This document shows, piece by piece, positions 2 through 21,292 of a stretch of 33,211 nt of DNA (the stretch's first letter is position 1; every line of letters starts with the position of its first letter). Source of the stretch: an uncultured Flavobacteriales bacterium (GTDB taxonomy: Bacteria; Bacteroidota; Bacteroidia; Flavobacteriales; Flavobacteriaceae); assembly GCA_913063255.1 (NCBI GenBank), contig CAJXYJ010000013.1, positions 1 to 33,211 on the forward strand, written 5' to 3'. The position numbers were made by a program, and so were the translations under genes. Under the pieces are notes generated by a model, which saw nothing but the letters and a program-made list of their open reading frames with translations, was not told the DNA's origin and made no database searches.

Positions 2-931
2 GGTGAAATAGGATTAGGTTCCCGTTTAAAAAGAATTAGTGATCTTTTAATGAAAGAAACACAATTACTATATAAAAGTCAGAATATAGATTTTGACCCC
101 TACCTATTTCCTGCCTTTAATACCATCATTAAATTAAAAAAAACAACCAATACAGAAATTCGGGATCTCCTGCATATCACACAACCTGCAGTAACTCAAA
201 GTCTAAATAAACTATTTAAAAACGAATGGATTACATTAAAAATAGATGAACAGGACAAACGCAAAAAATGGATTACCCTATCCAGTAAAGGCGAAGCTCT
301 TTATTCTGTATTACAACCCTTGTGGAATATTTTAGATAAAACGGTAAAACAATACACTGTTTTTCCAGCAGATTCTTTACTAGAGCATTTAAATTATTTT
401 GAAGAGAAAATTAAAAACGGAGATTTTATGAAAACGATACAAGAACAAATTAAAACAGAATTAGAAATTAACATAGTTACCCATCAAGAGGAATATGCAT
501 CCCCATTTTACGATTTAAATATAGAATGGCTAGAAACCTATTTTTATGTAGAGGAGTTTGACAAAGAAGTATTAAGTAAACCTCAACAATATATAATAGA
601 CCCGGGAGGGCATATTTTTTATGCCAAACAAGGTGATGAAATTTTGGGAACAGTGGCTTTGATGAAAGAAAATGAAAAATCGTTTGAACTCACAAAAATG
701 GCGGTAGCTCCCAATCAGAGAGGAAAAAAGATAGGACAAAAGCTCATGCAATATTGCATAGATTTTGCAAAGGAGAATAATTTTGATCGACTATTTTTAT
801 ATTCCAACACCAAATTAGAAAATGCCATTTATATCTACCGTAAATTTGGATTTATCGAAATTCCAGTAGAAAAAGACAGCCCTTATGATAGAAGTAATAT
901 AAAAATGGAATTCCCGATAAACAGTAACTAA
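2..931 (+). CDS. MarR-type HTH / GNAT acetyltransferase fusion (5' end outside window)
   Basis: Two-domain protein. The N-terminal part is a MarR-like winged helix (recognition region around ITQPAVTQSLNKLFKNEW, wing with DEQDKRKKW). The C-terminal part is a GNAT acetyltransferase with the acetyl-CoA loop NQRGKKIG and a typical closing YRKFGF segment. The reading frame is open to base 2 and reads GEIGLGSRLKRISDLLM before the first ATG at 50. That stretch matches the usual start of this fused family, so ATG 50 is internal and the true start lies upstream. The last stop is at 929-931. Fused MarR/GNAT proteins are common in Bacteroidota, where they are thought to acetylate a small molecule or protein while controlling transcription. 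Substrate and target genes cannot be told from the sequence. Confidence is high for the domain pair and low for any specific role. Confidence 0.88.
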   Translation, partial: GEIGLGSRLKRISDLLMKETQLLYKSQNIDFDPYLFPAFNTIIKLKKTTNTEIRDLLHITQPAVTQSLNKLFKNEWITLKIDEQDKRKKWITLSSKGEALYSVLQPLWNILDKTVKQYTVFPADSLLEHLNYFEEKIKNGDFMKTIQEQIKTELEINIVTHQEEYASPFYDLNIEWLETYFYVEEFDKEVLSKPQQYIIDPGGHIFYAKQGDEILGTVALMKENEKSFELTKMAVAPNQRGKKIGQKLMQYCIDFAKENNFDRLFLYSNTKLENAIYIYRKFGFIEIPVEKDSPYDRSNIKMEFPINSN

Positions 932-979
932 AAAGTGTTTTTATCCCAATGTATATTCCGATAAACGTTACTTTTGTTG

Positions 980-1006
980 ATGATATAACACGTTACAAGC
1001 AAGCTG
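980..1006 (+). repeat. 5' boundary of cassette-like unit 1 (half-site)
   Basis: ATGATATAACACG followed by GTTACAAGC at 992-1000. The nonamer is repeated as its exact reverse complement, GCTTGTAAC, at 1836-1844, just after the gene's stop codon. The outer 11-mer ATGATATAACA occurs again at 19907-19917 in front of the other cassette-like gene. The GTT at the junction and a complementary partner downstream are what an integron cassette start would show. Function is inferred. Confidence 0.55.
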
Positions 1007-1962
1007 AAAAAAAAATGACAAAAAACTACTTCTTCATAATTATATTACTGATTTCACTAACAAGTTGCGGACAAGAAACATTTGAATTTGAAAGTAAAAT
1101 AAATCCAGAAAAGATTTACACTCTTTCAATGAATATGTCATCAACGAATAATGTAAAGTATTTAACCGAAAGAACTGACCTGAAAGACAAAACCTCTGAG
1201 GGAAAATCTTCGACTGTAATGACGAGAATTACAACGACAAAAAAACTTGAAGAAAACGGACAATTTCCAGCGATAATAGAATATGGAAAAATAATTAAGA
1301 TTGCAAATGGTAATAGAACTGAAAATCCGATTACAGGTACTATTGTAAAAGGATTTTATAAAGAGAATAGTTTAATAGTTCAAGAAGTAATTTCAGAGCA
1401 ACTCAATGAGAAAACAAAAAATAGTATTAAATATGCATTAGAAAATGTCAAACCCGATATTGAATTTCCGAAAGAACATCTAAAAATTGGAGACAGCTTT
1501 GAACATAAAATGCCTATGTCAATACCTATAGATGGAGCAAATCCTGTAAAAATTGACATAATAAAAAATTTCACACTAAAGAGTGTGAAAAACAATATTG
1601 CTTCATTCAATATGAAAGAAATAATTCAACTTAGTACAGAAATTGAACAAGCAAATGTTATAATTTCAAATGGAACTGGAAATGGAATTGTAGAGTTTGA
1701 TGTTTTAGAGAATCATTTAATTAAAAATAAAGCTTTCTTTACAATTGAACTGAATGTAAAAATAAATAATGAGTTGACTGTAAATACAATAGTTGAAATG
1801 AATTCTGAAATTTCAACAACAATCGAATAAAGCCAGCTTGTAACAACGTATATAAAAAATAGCGGTTTTGGTGATTATACGAAAGATAAATAATAAAATA
1901 AAGGTCAACTATAAACCGAAAAGTTAGTGCTTAAAAATCCGCTACTTTTCATATACAAAACC
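991..1962 (+). mobile_element. putative gene cassette 1 (lipoprotein gene plus attC-like 3' element)
   Basis: A compact unit: GTTACAAGC boundary, only 14 bp to the lipoprotein start codon at 1015, stop at 1828-1830, then a palindromic element from 1834 to about 1968. Unit and element face the same way, as in integron cassettes, where attC lies at the 3' end of the gene. There is no promoter-like box inside the short leader. No integrase is visible, so whether it ever moved as a circle is inference. Alternative: a gene flanked by a repeat family dispersed by another mechanism. Confidence 0.45.
1015..1830 (+). CDS. lipoprotein of unknown function
   Basis: Encodes 271 residues if started at ATG 1015. 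An upstream in-frame ATG at 949 would add 22 polar residues in front of the signal peptide and run through the repeat boundary, so it was rejected. From 1015 the protein begins MTKNYFFIIILLISLTSC, a lipoprotein signal with lipobox and Cys18 followed by GQ. The remainder is soluble and beta-rich: a threonine-rich N-terminal half, a KIGDSFEHKMPM segment near the middle and alternating hydrophobic strands to the end. The look recalls Bacteroidota lipoproteins of the DUF6263 kind, from memory and unverified. Expected location is the outer or inner membrane face. It is the only gene between the repeat boundaries at 992 and 1836, which suggests it was acquired as a unit. No function is proposed. Confidence 0.8.
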   Translation: MTKNYFFIIILLISLTSCGQETFEFESKINPEKIYTLSMNMSSTNNVKYLTERTDLKDKTSEGKSSTVMTRITTTKKLEENGQFPAIIEYGKIIKIANGNRTENPITGTIVKGFYKENSLIVQEVISEQLNEKTKNSIKYALENVKPDIEFPKEHLKIGDSFEHKMPMSIPIDGANPVKIDIIKNFTLKSVKNNIASFNMKEIIQLSTEIEQANVIISNGTGNGIVEFDVLENHLIKNKAFFTIELNVKINNELTVNTIVEMNSEISTTIE

Positions 1963-1968
1963 GTTAGC
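1834..1968 (+). repeat. attC-like imperfect palindrome, element 1
   Basis: Begins CAGCTTGTAACAACG and ends ACCGTTAGC. The left arm GTATATAAAAAATAGCGGTTT (1848-1868) and the reverse complement of 1936-1956 agree at 18 of 21 positions, so the single strand would fold into a long hairpin with three mismatches, TAGCGG/CCGCTA being the strongest block. The loop carries AAGTTAGTGCTTAA (1921-1934), close to the box TAAATTAGTTGCTTA of the other two elements. AAC at the left end faces GTT at the right end, like the RYYYAAC/GTTRRRY ends of attC, although the consensus is only partly met. Confidence 0.6.
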
Positions 1969-19856: not shown

Positions 19857-19903
19857 TAAAGGTACGTTTATCACGAAACCTATGCGGATACATAGTACCT
19901 TTA
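19857..19903 (+). repeat. inverted repeat (TAAAGGTAC ... GTACCTTTA)
   Basis: A perfect 9-bp inverted repeat at 19857-19865 and 19895-19903, with a second inner pair TATC/GATA and a 29-nt loop. It starts 11 bp after the stop of the propeller gene and ends four bases before the ATGATATAACA boundary of cassette-like unit 3. It could end the upstream transcript, although no T-tract follows. Confidence 0.45.
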
Positions 19904-19906
19904 GTA

Positions 19907-19930
19907 ATGATATAACAAGTTGTGAATCAT
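19907..19930 (+). repeat. 5' boundary of cassette-like unit 3 (half-site)
   Basis: ATGATATAACA (19907-19917), identical to 980-990, then AGTTGTGAATCATT. GTTGTGAATC (19919-19928) recurs as its exact reverse complement GATTCACAAC at 21155-21164 after the gene. Extending over the next three bases gives 12 of 13 matched positions. Confidence 0.6.
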
Positions 19931-21283
19931 TAAATAACAAAAAACAAACATGAGATTACAAAAATACATTTTAACAATTCTAGGACTTATTTTATTCTTT
20001 CCGTCAATCGCCTTTAGTCAAGGTGAAAAGATAAAATATGAGCACACCCAATTAAGTGACCACGCTTATATCATCACTCGTACAGGGAGTTCACCTGCCC
20101 GTAGGTCGAATATGGGAGTGATTATTGGTGAGAAAGGCTTATTGCTCATCAATCCTTTATTCAGCGGGGATGAAGTGGATCAGTTTATGAATGCATTACA
20201 GAAGATTTCTGATATGCCCGTAAAATATGTCATTAACAGTAATTGGGATAATTATAACATTGCCGCCAATTGGTACTTCAAGGACAAGGATGTACTGATT
20301 ATTTCACATGAAAATATAGTGTACCATAGGAACGTCCACACTCAATTGTTATTTAAGGATAAATTCTCTTTGGATATTGGAACGGAATCAATCATTGCCT
20401 ATAGGAGTTTGGGGCATTCATTTGGCCACATCAACATTCACATTGAAAATGCTAATACAACTTTTATGTCCGACAGTTATAGAAGCCAATGGATGACAAT
20501 AGAAGGTCCCTTTGGGCTAGAAGGTCATTTTAATGGCATTGATATGGCTTTAGAGATGGGTGATCAGAACACCAAATACGTTTCTGGAAATACTACAGGT
20601 AAAATTATTAGCAACAGAGAAGATTTGAACAATGAAAAAAAACTTCGTTCAAGATTTTCCAATCGCGTGTTTGAATTAAGGCAACAAGGCAAATCAAACG
20701 AGGAAATATTAATGGATGATGCAATTGTAGGCTTATTCAAACAATATGACTTATATCAATACATCACAGATGAAATTGCGGATTGGGTAATTAATCCTCT
20801 TTTCTACGATGAAAAAGCCAAGGCACCAATACTTTCTTTCAGTCAACTAGAAAAATACGTGGGGACGTATAGTTTAAAAGGCAAAAGCGATGTAGAAATT
20901 TTTATCGAAAATGGTCAACTATTTTCTAAAAGTGTTGGTCAATTTTATTTGAAATTGGTACCTACCTCAGACACCCATTTTTGGCCTTACATGCAAAGCC
21001 TGAATGTTTATCAAATTTTTGAAATGGATGATGAAAACAATGTCCTTGGATTTACAATTGAACATGGTGGAGCAACCTTGAAATACACAAAAAACAAATA
21101 ATGCTCCTTTCAATAAGATTATTCTGAATTTATAGGAAAGTATTCTGAATAAACGATTCACAACACCGTATAAAATTAATTGCTAGTACAAGCTTAATTA
21201 CGAAAATTCCTGAGGATTTTCTATTCAGTTTGTATTTACTAAATTAGTTGCTTAATCAACGCAAAAAATCTTATACAAACACG
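19919..21283 (+). mobile_element. putative gene cassette 3 (MBL-fold gene plus attC-like element)
   Basis: One gene between a GTT boundary and a palindromic element, in the same arrangement and orientation as units 1 and 2 about 17 kb away. Spacing is compact: 31 bp from boundary to ATG and 54 bp from stop to the complementary arm. It lies in the gap between the propeller gene and the convergent HAD gene, a harmless place for an insertion. The outer 11-mer before the GTT is shared with unit 1, while the arm sequence that pairs with the gene's own 3' end is unit-specific. No integrase is present in the window. Confidence 0.5.
19950..21101 (+). CDS. metallo-beta-lactamase-fold protein with degenerate metal site
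   Basis: Encodes 383 residues with a Sec signal (MRLQKYILTILGLILFFPSIAFSQ). The N-terminal 240 residues have the MBL layout: NMGVIIGEKGLLLINPLFS as the first strands, then VKYVINSNWDNYNIAANWYF at the place of the usual VINTHWHxDHxxGN. All histidines of the HxHxDH motif are replaced (Asn98, Asp100, Tyr102, Asn103). GHSFGH (156-160) and MSDSY (Asp175), the later ligand positions, remain. A C-terminal beta domain (LEKYVGTYSL ... FTIEHGGATLKY) resembles the tail found on secreted serine beta-lactamase-like proteins. It is probably periplasmic and not a normal zinc hydrolase. It is carried on cassette-like unit 3. Function unknown. Confidence 0.82.
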   Translation: MRLQKYILTILGLILFFPSIAFSQGEKIKYEHTQLSDHAYIITRTGSSPARRSNMGVIIGEKGLLLINPLFSGDEVDQFMNALQKISDMPVKYVINSNWDNYNIAANWYFKDKDVLIISHENIVYHRNVHTQLLFKDKFSLDIGTESIIAYRSLGHSFGHINIHIENANTTFMSDSYRSQWMTIEGPFGLEGHFNGIDMALEMGDQNTKYVSGNTTGKIISNREDLNNEKKLRSRFSNRVFELRQQGKSNEEILMDDAIVGLFKQYDLYQYITDEIADWVINPLFYDEKAKAPILSFSQLEKYVGTYSLKGKSDVEIFIENGQLFSKSVGQFYLKLVPTSDTHFWPYMQSLNVYQIFEMDDENNVLGFTIEHGGATLKYTKNK

Positions 21284-21292
21284 ATAACCATT
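21152..21292 (+). repeat. attC-like imperfect palindrome, element 3
   Basis: Starts with GATTCACAACACCG and ends CAAACACGATAACC. The arm GTATAAAATTAATTGC (21168-21183) matches the reverse complement of 21261-21276 at 13 of 16 positions. An inner hairpin GAAAATTCC/GGATTTTC lies near 21201-21221, and the box TAAATTAGTTGCTTA is at 21240-21254. The right-end core reads CGATAACC instead of CGTTA. The overall plan is that of element 1 with a different sequence in the outer variable arm. Confidence 0.6.

Follow-up and report, generated by a model that had tools for sequence, protein, structure and literature searches.

Two single-gene units with complementary ends in the window

The window, by which we mean the whole 33,211-nt stretch of Flavobacteriaceae DNA analysed here, holds two single genes that are bracketed in the same manner, one encoding a lipoprotein and the other a protein with a C-terminal DUF3471 domain, the N-terminus of which may be metallo-beta-lactamase-like, to judge from our impression of it (Table 1). 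As an earlier note on this DNA had reported, GTTACAAGC in front of the lipoprotein gene is the exact reverse complement, over 9 bp, of GCTTGTAAC behind it. With this second copy begins an element some 130 nt long, which terminates in CCGTTAGC, with its GTT at 1963-1965, and whose 13-pair stem covaries across loci. At the other gene GTTGTGAATC and GATTCACAAC are exactly complementary over 10 bp and, again in agreement with the note, their letters are unlike those of the first pair; of the three elements that it counted, only two are found in the window. The 9-bp pair at the lipoprotein gene is weak evidence when taken alone, as 3.2% of random 9-mers from the window have their reverse complement 300-3000 bp downstream, and it rises far above chance because of its position and its recurrence across the genome and the family. 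A single-strand fold of 1830-1975 is no better than its shuffles (z -0.29), and comparative covariation was therefore needed to assess the element.

Table 1. Genes, putative docking sites, arms and attC-like elements of the two candidate cassettes (window coordinates)
Feature	Position	Strand	Basis or remark
MarR-GNAT gene, flank rather than cassette, upstream of docking site 1	50-931	+	Pfam
Putative docking site 1 (attI-like), TATCCC...GATAAACG..TACTTTTG..GATATAACACG^TT	942-992	+	matches the attI-like site behind integrases
Candidate cassette 1, start, R'-like arm GTTACAAGC	992-1000	+	exact complement of 1836-1844
Candidate cassette 1, solitary	993-1963	+	limits as in arrays; G^TT exchange assumed, the exact cut within GTT being inferred
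Cargo of candidate cassette 1, lipoprotein, 271 aa	1015-1830	+	ORF; without Pfam family
attC-like element 1 (left arm 1836-1844, core 1842-1965)	1836-1965	+	covariance model R1, 83.3 bits, E 1.5e-15; covariation
Putative docking site 2 (attI-like), TATCACGAAACC...TACCTTTAGTAATGATATAACAAG^TT	19869-19919	+	matches the attI-like site
Candidate cassette 2, start GTTGTGAATC	19919-19928	+	exact complement of 21155-21164
Candidate cassette 2	19920-21283		solitary unit
Cargo of candidate cassette 2, 383-aa protein, C-terminal DUF3471	19950-21101	+	Pfam PF11954
attC-like element 2	21155-21285	+	covariance model R1, 80.6 bits, E 6.4e-15

Three details of the window were observed alongside these features. 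Element 2 has a degenerate right end (21275-21290), with CACGAT in place of CCGTT; either the right half of this dock has decayed or the cassette is perhaps trapped there. Directly after element 1, at 1963-1975, GTTAGCATTCAT resembles a cassette start and may be that of a cassette whose site was lost, its partner arm AATGCTAAC being absent from the whole window. Bases 1-77 of the window recur without change on contig C99 of this genome, a match that probably reflects overlapping assembly at a repeat.

A tyrosine recombinase and its array on contig C74

In the source genome, the assembly of which is fragmented and 81% complete, a search with a strict left-core pattern turned up just two true elements. 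A covariance model was therefore built, and with it 17 elements are recovered from this genome at E<0.01. At least nine further pairs occur outside the window, six of them on contig C74 and the others on C43, C24 and C196. The earlier note had proposed a cassette without a known integrase, and on this one point it is corrected: a recombinase search of the genome uncovered a 400-aa tyrosine recombinase on C74 (7459-8661), with an array adjoining it, in addition to separate XerC-like and XerD-like genes. An attI-like site, ACACCTTTAGTGGAGATATAACAAG^TTACCCAAT, stands right after the integrase stop and is succeeded by at least six tandem genes in the same direction, each of which is then followed by an element of the window type.

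Within this array the cassette starts and left arms are exact complements of 9-10 bp, namely GTTACCCAAT/ATTGGGTAAC, GTTGCCAGT/ACTGGCAAC, GTTGCCAAC/GTTGGCAAC, GTTATGCAC/GTGCATAAC, GTTGCCATT/AATGGCAAC and GTTGGCAAC/GTTGCCAAC. Element bodies that are near-identical can have differing arms, which fits an arm that is part of the cassette. A PADLOC search of the genes of nearby cassettes gave no convincing defence family.

The arm relation holds across Flavobacteriaceae

Close relatives of the C74 integrase (E below 1e-90, about 43-60% identical; hereafter core integrases) occur in 38 of the 149 Flavobacteriaceae genomes (genera) sampled, and many contigs end directly after the gene, as repeats would cause. 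We compared 174 left ends from 40 regions around or downstream of core integrases and their more distant relatives; 125 of them have their own exact complement within 4 kb upstream, compared with 2.5% for arms taken from other loci. The complements stand at cassette boundaries, after the right end of the previous element, and the start of the first cassette of an array is preceded by an attI-like TATAAC motif. Complementarity extends over 9 or 10 bp and never 11, a conserved mismatch stopping it, and the longest ORF lies on the integrase strand in 108 of the 125 cassettes. The earlier note had suggested, from the example of integrons, that a cassette's first bases complement the left end of its own attC, and had staked the idea beforehand on a tie that joins each outer arm to the 5' end of its own gene; this tie is borne out both in the genome, in the cassettes on C74, and in the family.

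In a second set of 80 named loci, the species of which may overlap those of the first sample, we verified 62 cassettes over 170 kb downstream of integrases with 44% identity or more, and 2 over 388 kb upstream of them (binomial p 9e-30). Verified downstream cassettes are found in Algibacter mikhailovii, Aurantibacter aestuarii, Winogradskyella bathintestinalis, Polaribacter glomeratus, Robiginitalea aestuariiviva and Psychroserpens jangbogonensis. Integrases that are 35-42% identical adjoin arrays in some genomes (L078, L084), and in the named set cassettes are sparse around them, with 9 downstream and 3 upstream, so that we make no claim for this group as a whole. Arrays also contain duplicates of whole cassettes that align end to end at 96-99.8%, such as four copies of 437-440 bp in one genome (G014) and three of 248 bp in another (G118).

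attC-like elements were detected in 131 of the 149 genomes. They are thus far commoner than the core integrase, and many must stem from other recombinases or be relics. Genomes with the integrase have a median of 16.5 elements and those without it 11 among the matches listed, a weak link that we do not count as evidence. Two loci (L064 in G118 and L051 in G078) have element bodies that are built differently and are mostly missed by R1; their arms and ends obey the rule. One integrase relative, 44% identical, comes from a record titled Azoarcus (L274) and groups with Bacteroidota sequences, and this label is likely a binning error.

Structure of the attC-like site

The stem model, which was drawn by hand, comprises 13 pairs. 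Across loci 88% of its cells are paired and 50 are double-changed, compared with 16.7 +/- 3.1 after shuffling and at most 20 in slid controls. The element is asymmetric: it has A[AC]CG on the left, and on the right about 7 unpaired bases separate the outer arm from the inner stem. This asymmetry resembles the central spacer of attC. In the R boxes GTT and AAC are invariant, and the remainder of RYYYAAC / GTTRRRY is followed only in part (for example GTTGTGAAT and GTTACAAGC), which is how the earlier note had described it.

Within an array the outer arm of a single element is unpaired because its right end belongs to the next cassette. The predicted bottom-strand fold has -18.8 kcal/mol with the cassette's own arm and -11.8 with that of the next cassette, and according to this prediction the outer arm can pair in the excised circle. 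By analogy with integrons, recombination would proceed through the folded bottom strand.

attI-like docking sites are dispersed in the genome

In 29 of 32 loci the stop codon of the integrase is followed, at a distance of 23-42 bp, by the attI-like site. Each of the two window cassettes, like the cassettes on C24, C36, C43 and C196, is preceded by a copy of it about 50 bp long, with the pattern TATCC...GATAAA...TA..TTT[GA]...GATATAACAAG^TT. About ten such docks are dispersed in the source genome, and those under the two window cassettes had been missed by the earlier note. When the window DNA is compared with relatives by BLAST, several dock alignments stop exactly at 994, the GTT. Docking site 1 contains TACTTTTG (969-976), which fits TAnnTTTG, a motif that we take to be the Bacteroidetes -7 promoter consensus; exact TAnnTTTG is present in 17 of 65 docks compared with about one expected after shuffling, suggesting that the docks carry an active promoter.

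The strict dock pattern occurs in 51 of the 149 genomes, with up to 11 per genome and more than 100 matches in total versus about 32 for a reversed-pattern control. It accompanies the core integrase in 29 of 38 genomes and is found in 22 of the 111 without it (p 6e-10), an association to which the integrase's own attI contributes. Over their variable middle, docks are 65% alike within a genome and 42% between genomes, a difference reached in 0 of 1000 label shuffles. Away from the integrase, and in genera other than that of the window, a cassette with matching arms follows 20 of 29 docks, compared with 13 of 806 in the control. In one genome, seven docks in the same direction lie within about 15 kb (L314; G053 contig C6, 35800-55000), some of them near-identical and with cassettes between them, so that this array is punctuated by attI copies beyond attC-like sites alone.

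The lipoprotein or a homologue of it is present in only 12 of 397 genomes, the source genome included. In a genome of another genus (G624) the homologue sits exactly inside an array cassette, with its start GTTACCTGC at 1472 and its arm GCAGGTAAC at 2356; a second genome (G121) has elements on either side of the homologue and a third (G041) has one element just upstream. The MarR-GNAT gene that flanks docking site 1 is present without the docking site in the closest relative (G540), and in G550 its orthologue is followed by the same dock and then by a different cassette. The idea of precise units, also put forward in the earlier note, is thereby upheld: the end-to-end duplicates, the exchanged cassette in G550 and the G624 cassette speak for it. 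An empty site with both flanks was not found for the window cassettes in 59 relatives, in which the downstream flank is unmatched.

The integrase lacks the IntI-specific insert

The catalytic arginines are 92 residues apart in all core integrases measured and 134 apart in IntI1 and the canonical Bacteroidota IntIs measured, which indicates that the IntI-specific insert (patch III) is absent from the core integrases. The C74-type integrase scores 200.2 bits against TIGR02249 (NCBIfam integrase_gron), the cut-off of which is 265, and 216.6 bits against XerA NF040815, a close miss of the cut-off of 220. In a tree built by a quick method, with long-branched Xer outgroups, core integrases and IntIs fall into two separate groups, each with full support. 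An AlphaFold model (pLDDT 84, pTM 0.60) places an extra N-terminal domain of about 85 residues ahead of the usual two, and in structure comparison XerA, Xer and IntI rank similarly high (Z 20-22) and are not told apart, the best solved matches being archaeal XerA/Xer. Judged by these sequence characters, the array-linked integrase is not IntI, and the earlier note's supposition that the recombinase could differ from IntI proved sound.

These data bear directly on the reading of the units as a canonical integron or CALIN, in which classical attC sites are moved by an IntI encoded elsewhere. The shared architecture and the G^TT-type junction would fit such a system, IntI1 is a distant relative of the flavobacterial integrase (34% identity over 272 aa), and canonical IntI is common in other Bacteroidota, with 105 of 395 genomes carrying it outside the window's family (e.g. 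L110-L139), which is more than published Bacteroidetes surveys suggest. In addition, one attC of the Polaribacter phage P12002L recombined with IntI1 in published assays (PMC9892861), and this site may be one of the phage's R1-type elements. However, no genome of the window's family is among the IntI matches listed for those 395 genomes, no R1-type element was found within about 1.5 kb of the 25 canonical IntI genes tested, the R boxes depart from the GTTRRRY consensus, and the recombinase that the arrays adjoin is of another clade. We therefore regard a canonical system as improbable.

A proposed route of cassette exchange

The arm relation, the arrays behind the integrase, the conserved hairpin, the attI-like site, the precise units and the dispersed docks can be read from the DNA itself, and they suggest that the C74 recombinase catalyses the exchange and acts in trans at dispersed docks. 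We consider it very probable that 993-1963 and 19920-21283 are mobile cassettes of an integron-like system in which this recombinase joins attC-like sites to attI-like docks. In the proposed route, the tyrosine recombinase would join the attC-like site of a cassette to an attI-like dock, with strand exchange taking place within GTT. While the cassette is an excised circle, its first ~10 bases would pair with the left arm and close the attC hairpin, and after insertion the same ~10 bases would remain at the cassette's 5' end, which would give rise to the observed complementarity between start and left arm. For each window cassette the point of insertion would have been one of the dispersed attI-like copies. 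Several observations count against this reading: attC-like elements are present in far more genomes than the core integrase, relatives yielded no two-flank empty site for the window cassettes, the right end of element 2 is degenerate, and the assembly is fragmented.

Two further explanations fare less well than a canonical integron, and we hold both to be very improbable. One takes the elements as transcription terminators or RNA structures that mark gene ends, for which it counts that they lie mostly 10-30 bp past stop codons on the coding strand and that their stem is conserved; this predicts neither an outer arm that complements the 5' end of the preceding gene nor arrays after one integrase, and an Rfam search of the window gave no match. 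It is possible that the elements double as terminators in a secondary role. The other takes the units as transposon-like, with GTTACAAGC...GCTTGTAAC as terminal inverted repeats, and the pair does resemble short inverted ends round one gene, but the ends vary by unit over a conserved internal core, one element serves two neighbouring array units, no target duplication pattern was seen, and a recombinase with an adjacent fixed site accounts for the arrays.

Relation to known systems

The integron-like reading rests on a series of traits shared with class 1 and chromosomal integrons: an integrase with an attI-like site and a same-strand array, cassettes made of a gene plus a hairpin, a GTT junction, a left arm that complements the bases with which its cassette begins, and repeated cassettes within an array. 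The flavobacterial system differs in that its integrase is without the IntI-specific domain and in a separate clade, its arms are 9-10 bp long with a loose consensus, and its attI-like copies are dispersed in the genome. Class 1 intI reads away from its array, whereas the flavobacterial integrase reads toward it. With the Xer recombinases (XerA, XerC/D, XerH) it shares the fold and a colinear catalytic domain, and it is set apart from them by the additional N-terminal domain and by its link to cassette arrays. Solitary cassettes away from the integrase are a feature shared with attG, the sites at which IntI inserts cassettes into genomes outside integrons (cited in PMC12901181). attG sites are divergent secondary sites, whereas the flavobacterial docks are ~50-bp local copies of the attI-like site.

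We somewhat favour the broader view that this is a second integron lineage across Flavobacteriaceae, in which an Xer-like integrase would capture cassettes at its own attI and at dispersed attI copies, each holding, and probably expressing, its own cassette, and which would have been overlooked since the IntI-specific domain is a requirement in surveys. A single integrase family has been linked to integron activity, for which one of its domains is considered essential (Messier and Roy 2001, as cited in PMC2426708), and at least some surveys pick out integrons by that domain (PMC2426708). With IntegronFinder 2, one complete integron was recorded in Bacteroidetes proper, in Salinibacter ruber (PMC9024848). 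The flavobacterial system works like an integron, but we do not class it as one, since its integrase lacks the IntI domain and scores below the family cut-off. In the open-access literature searched we found no description of the flavobacterial integrase, of arrays in Flavobacteriaceae or of dispersed attI copies, and priority is uncertain. If the broader view is correct, integron-type gene capture extends beyond IntI, a large unseen pool of cassettes comes to light, the role of the IntI domain becomes directly testable, and dispersed docks constitute a new means of placing captured genes round a chromosome.

Two observations were made on mobile elements. The lytic Polaribacter phage P12002L, for which the available part of PMC9892861 describes a CALIN with ordinary attC sites and contains no link to the flavobacterial integrase, is also matched by R1, with several R1-type elements of which two are strong (L302), and phages may carry these cassettes. 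A plasmid of Chryseobacterium sp. SNU WT5 (NZ_CP041688.1; L141) encodes an integrase relative of 35% identity, in whose downstream 8 kb lie three weak R1-type elements, and possibly carries a version of the system.
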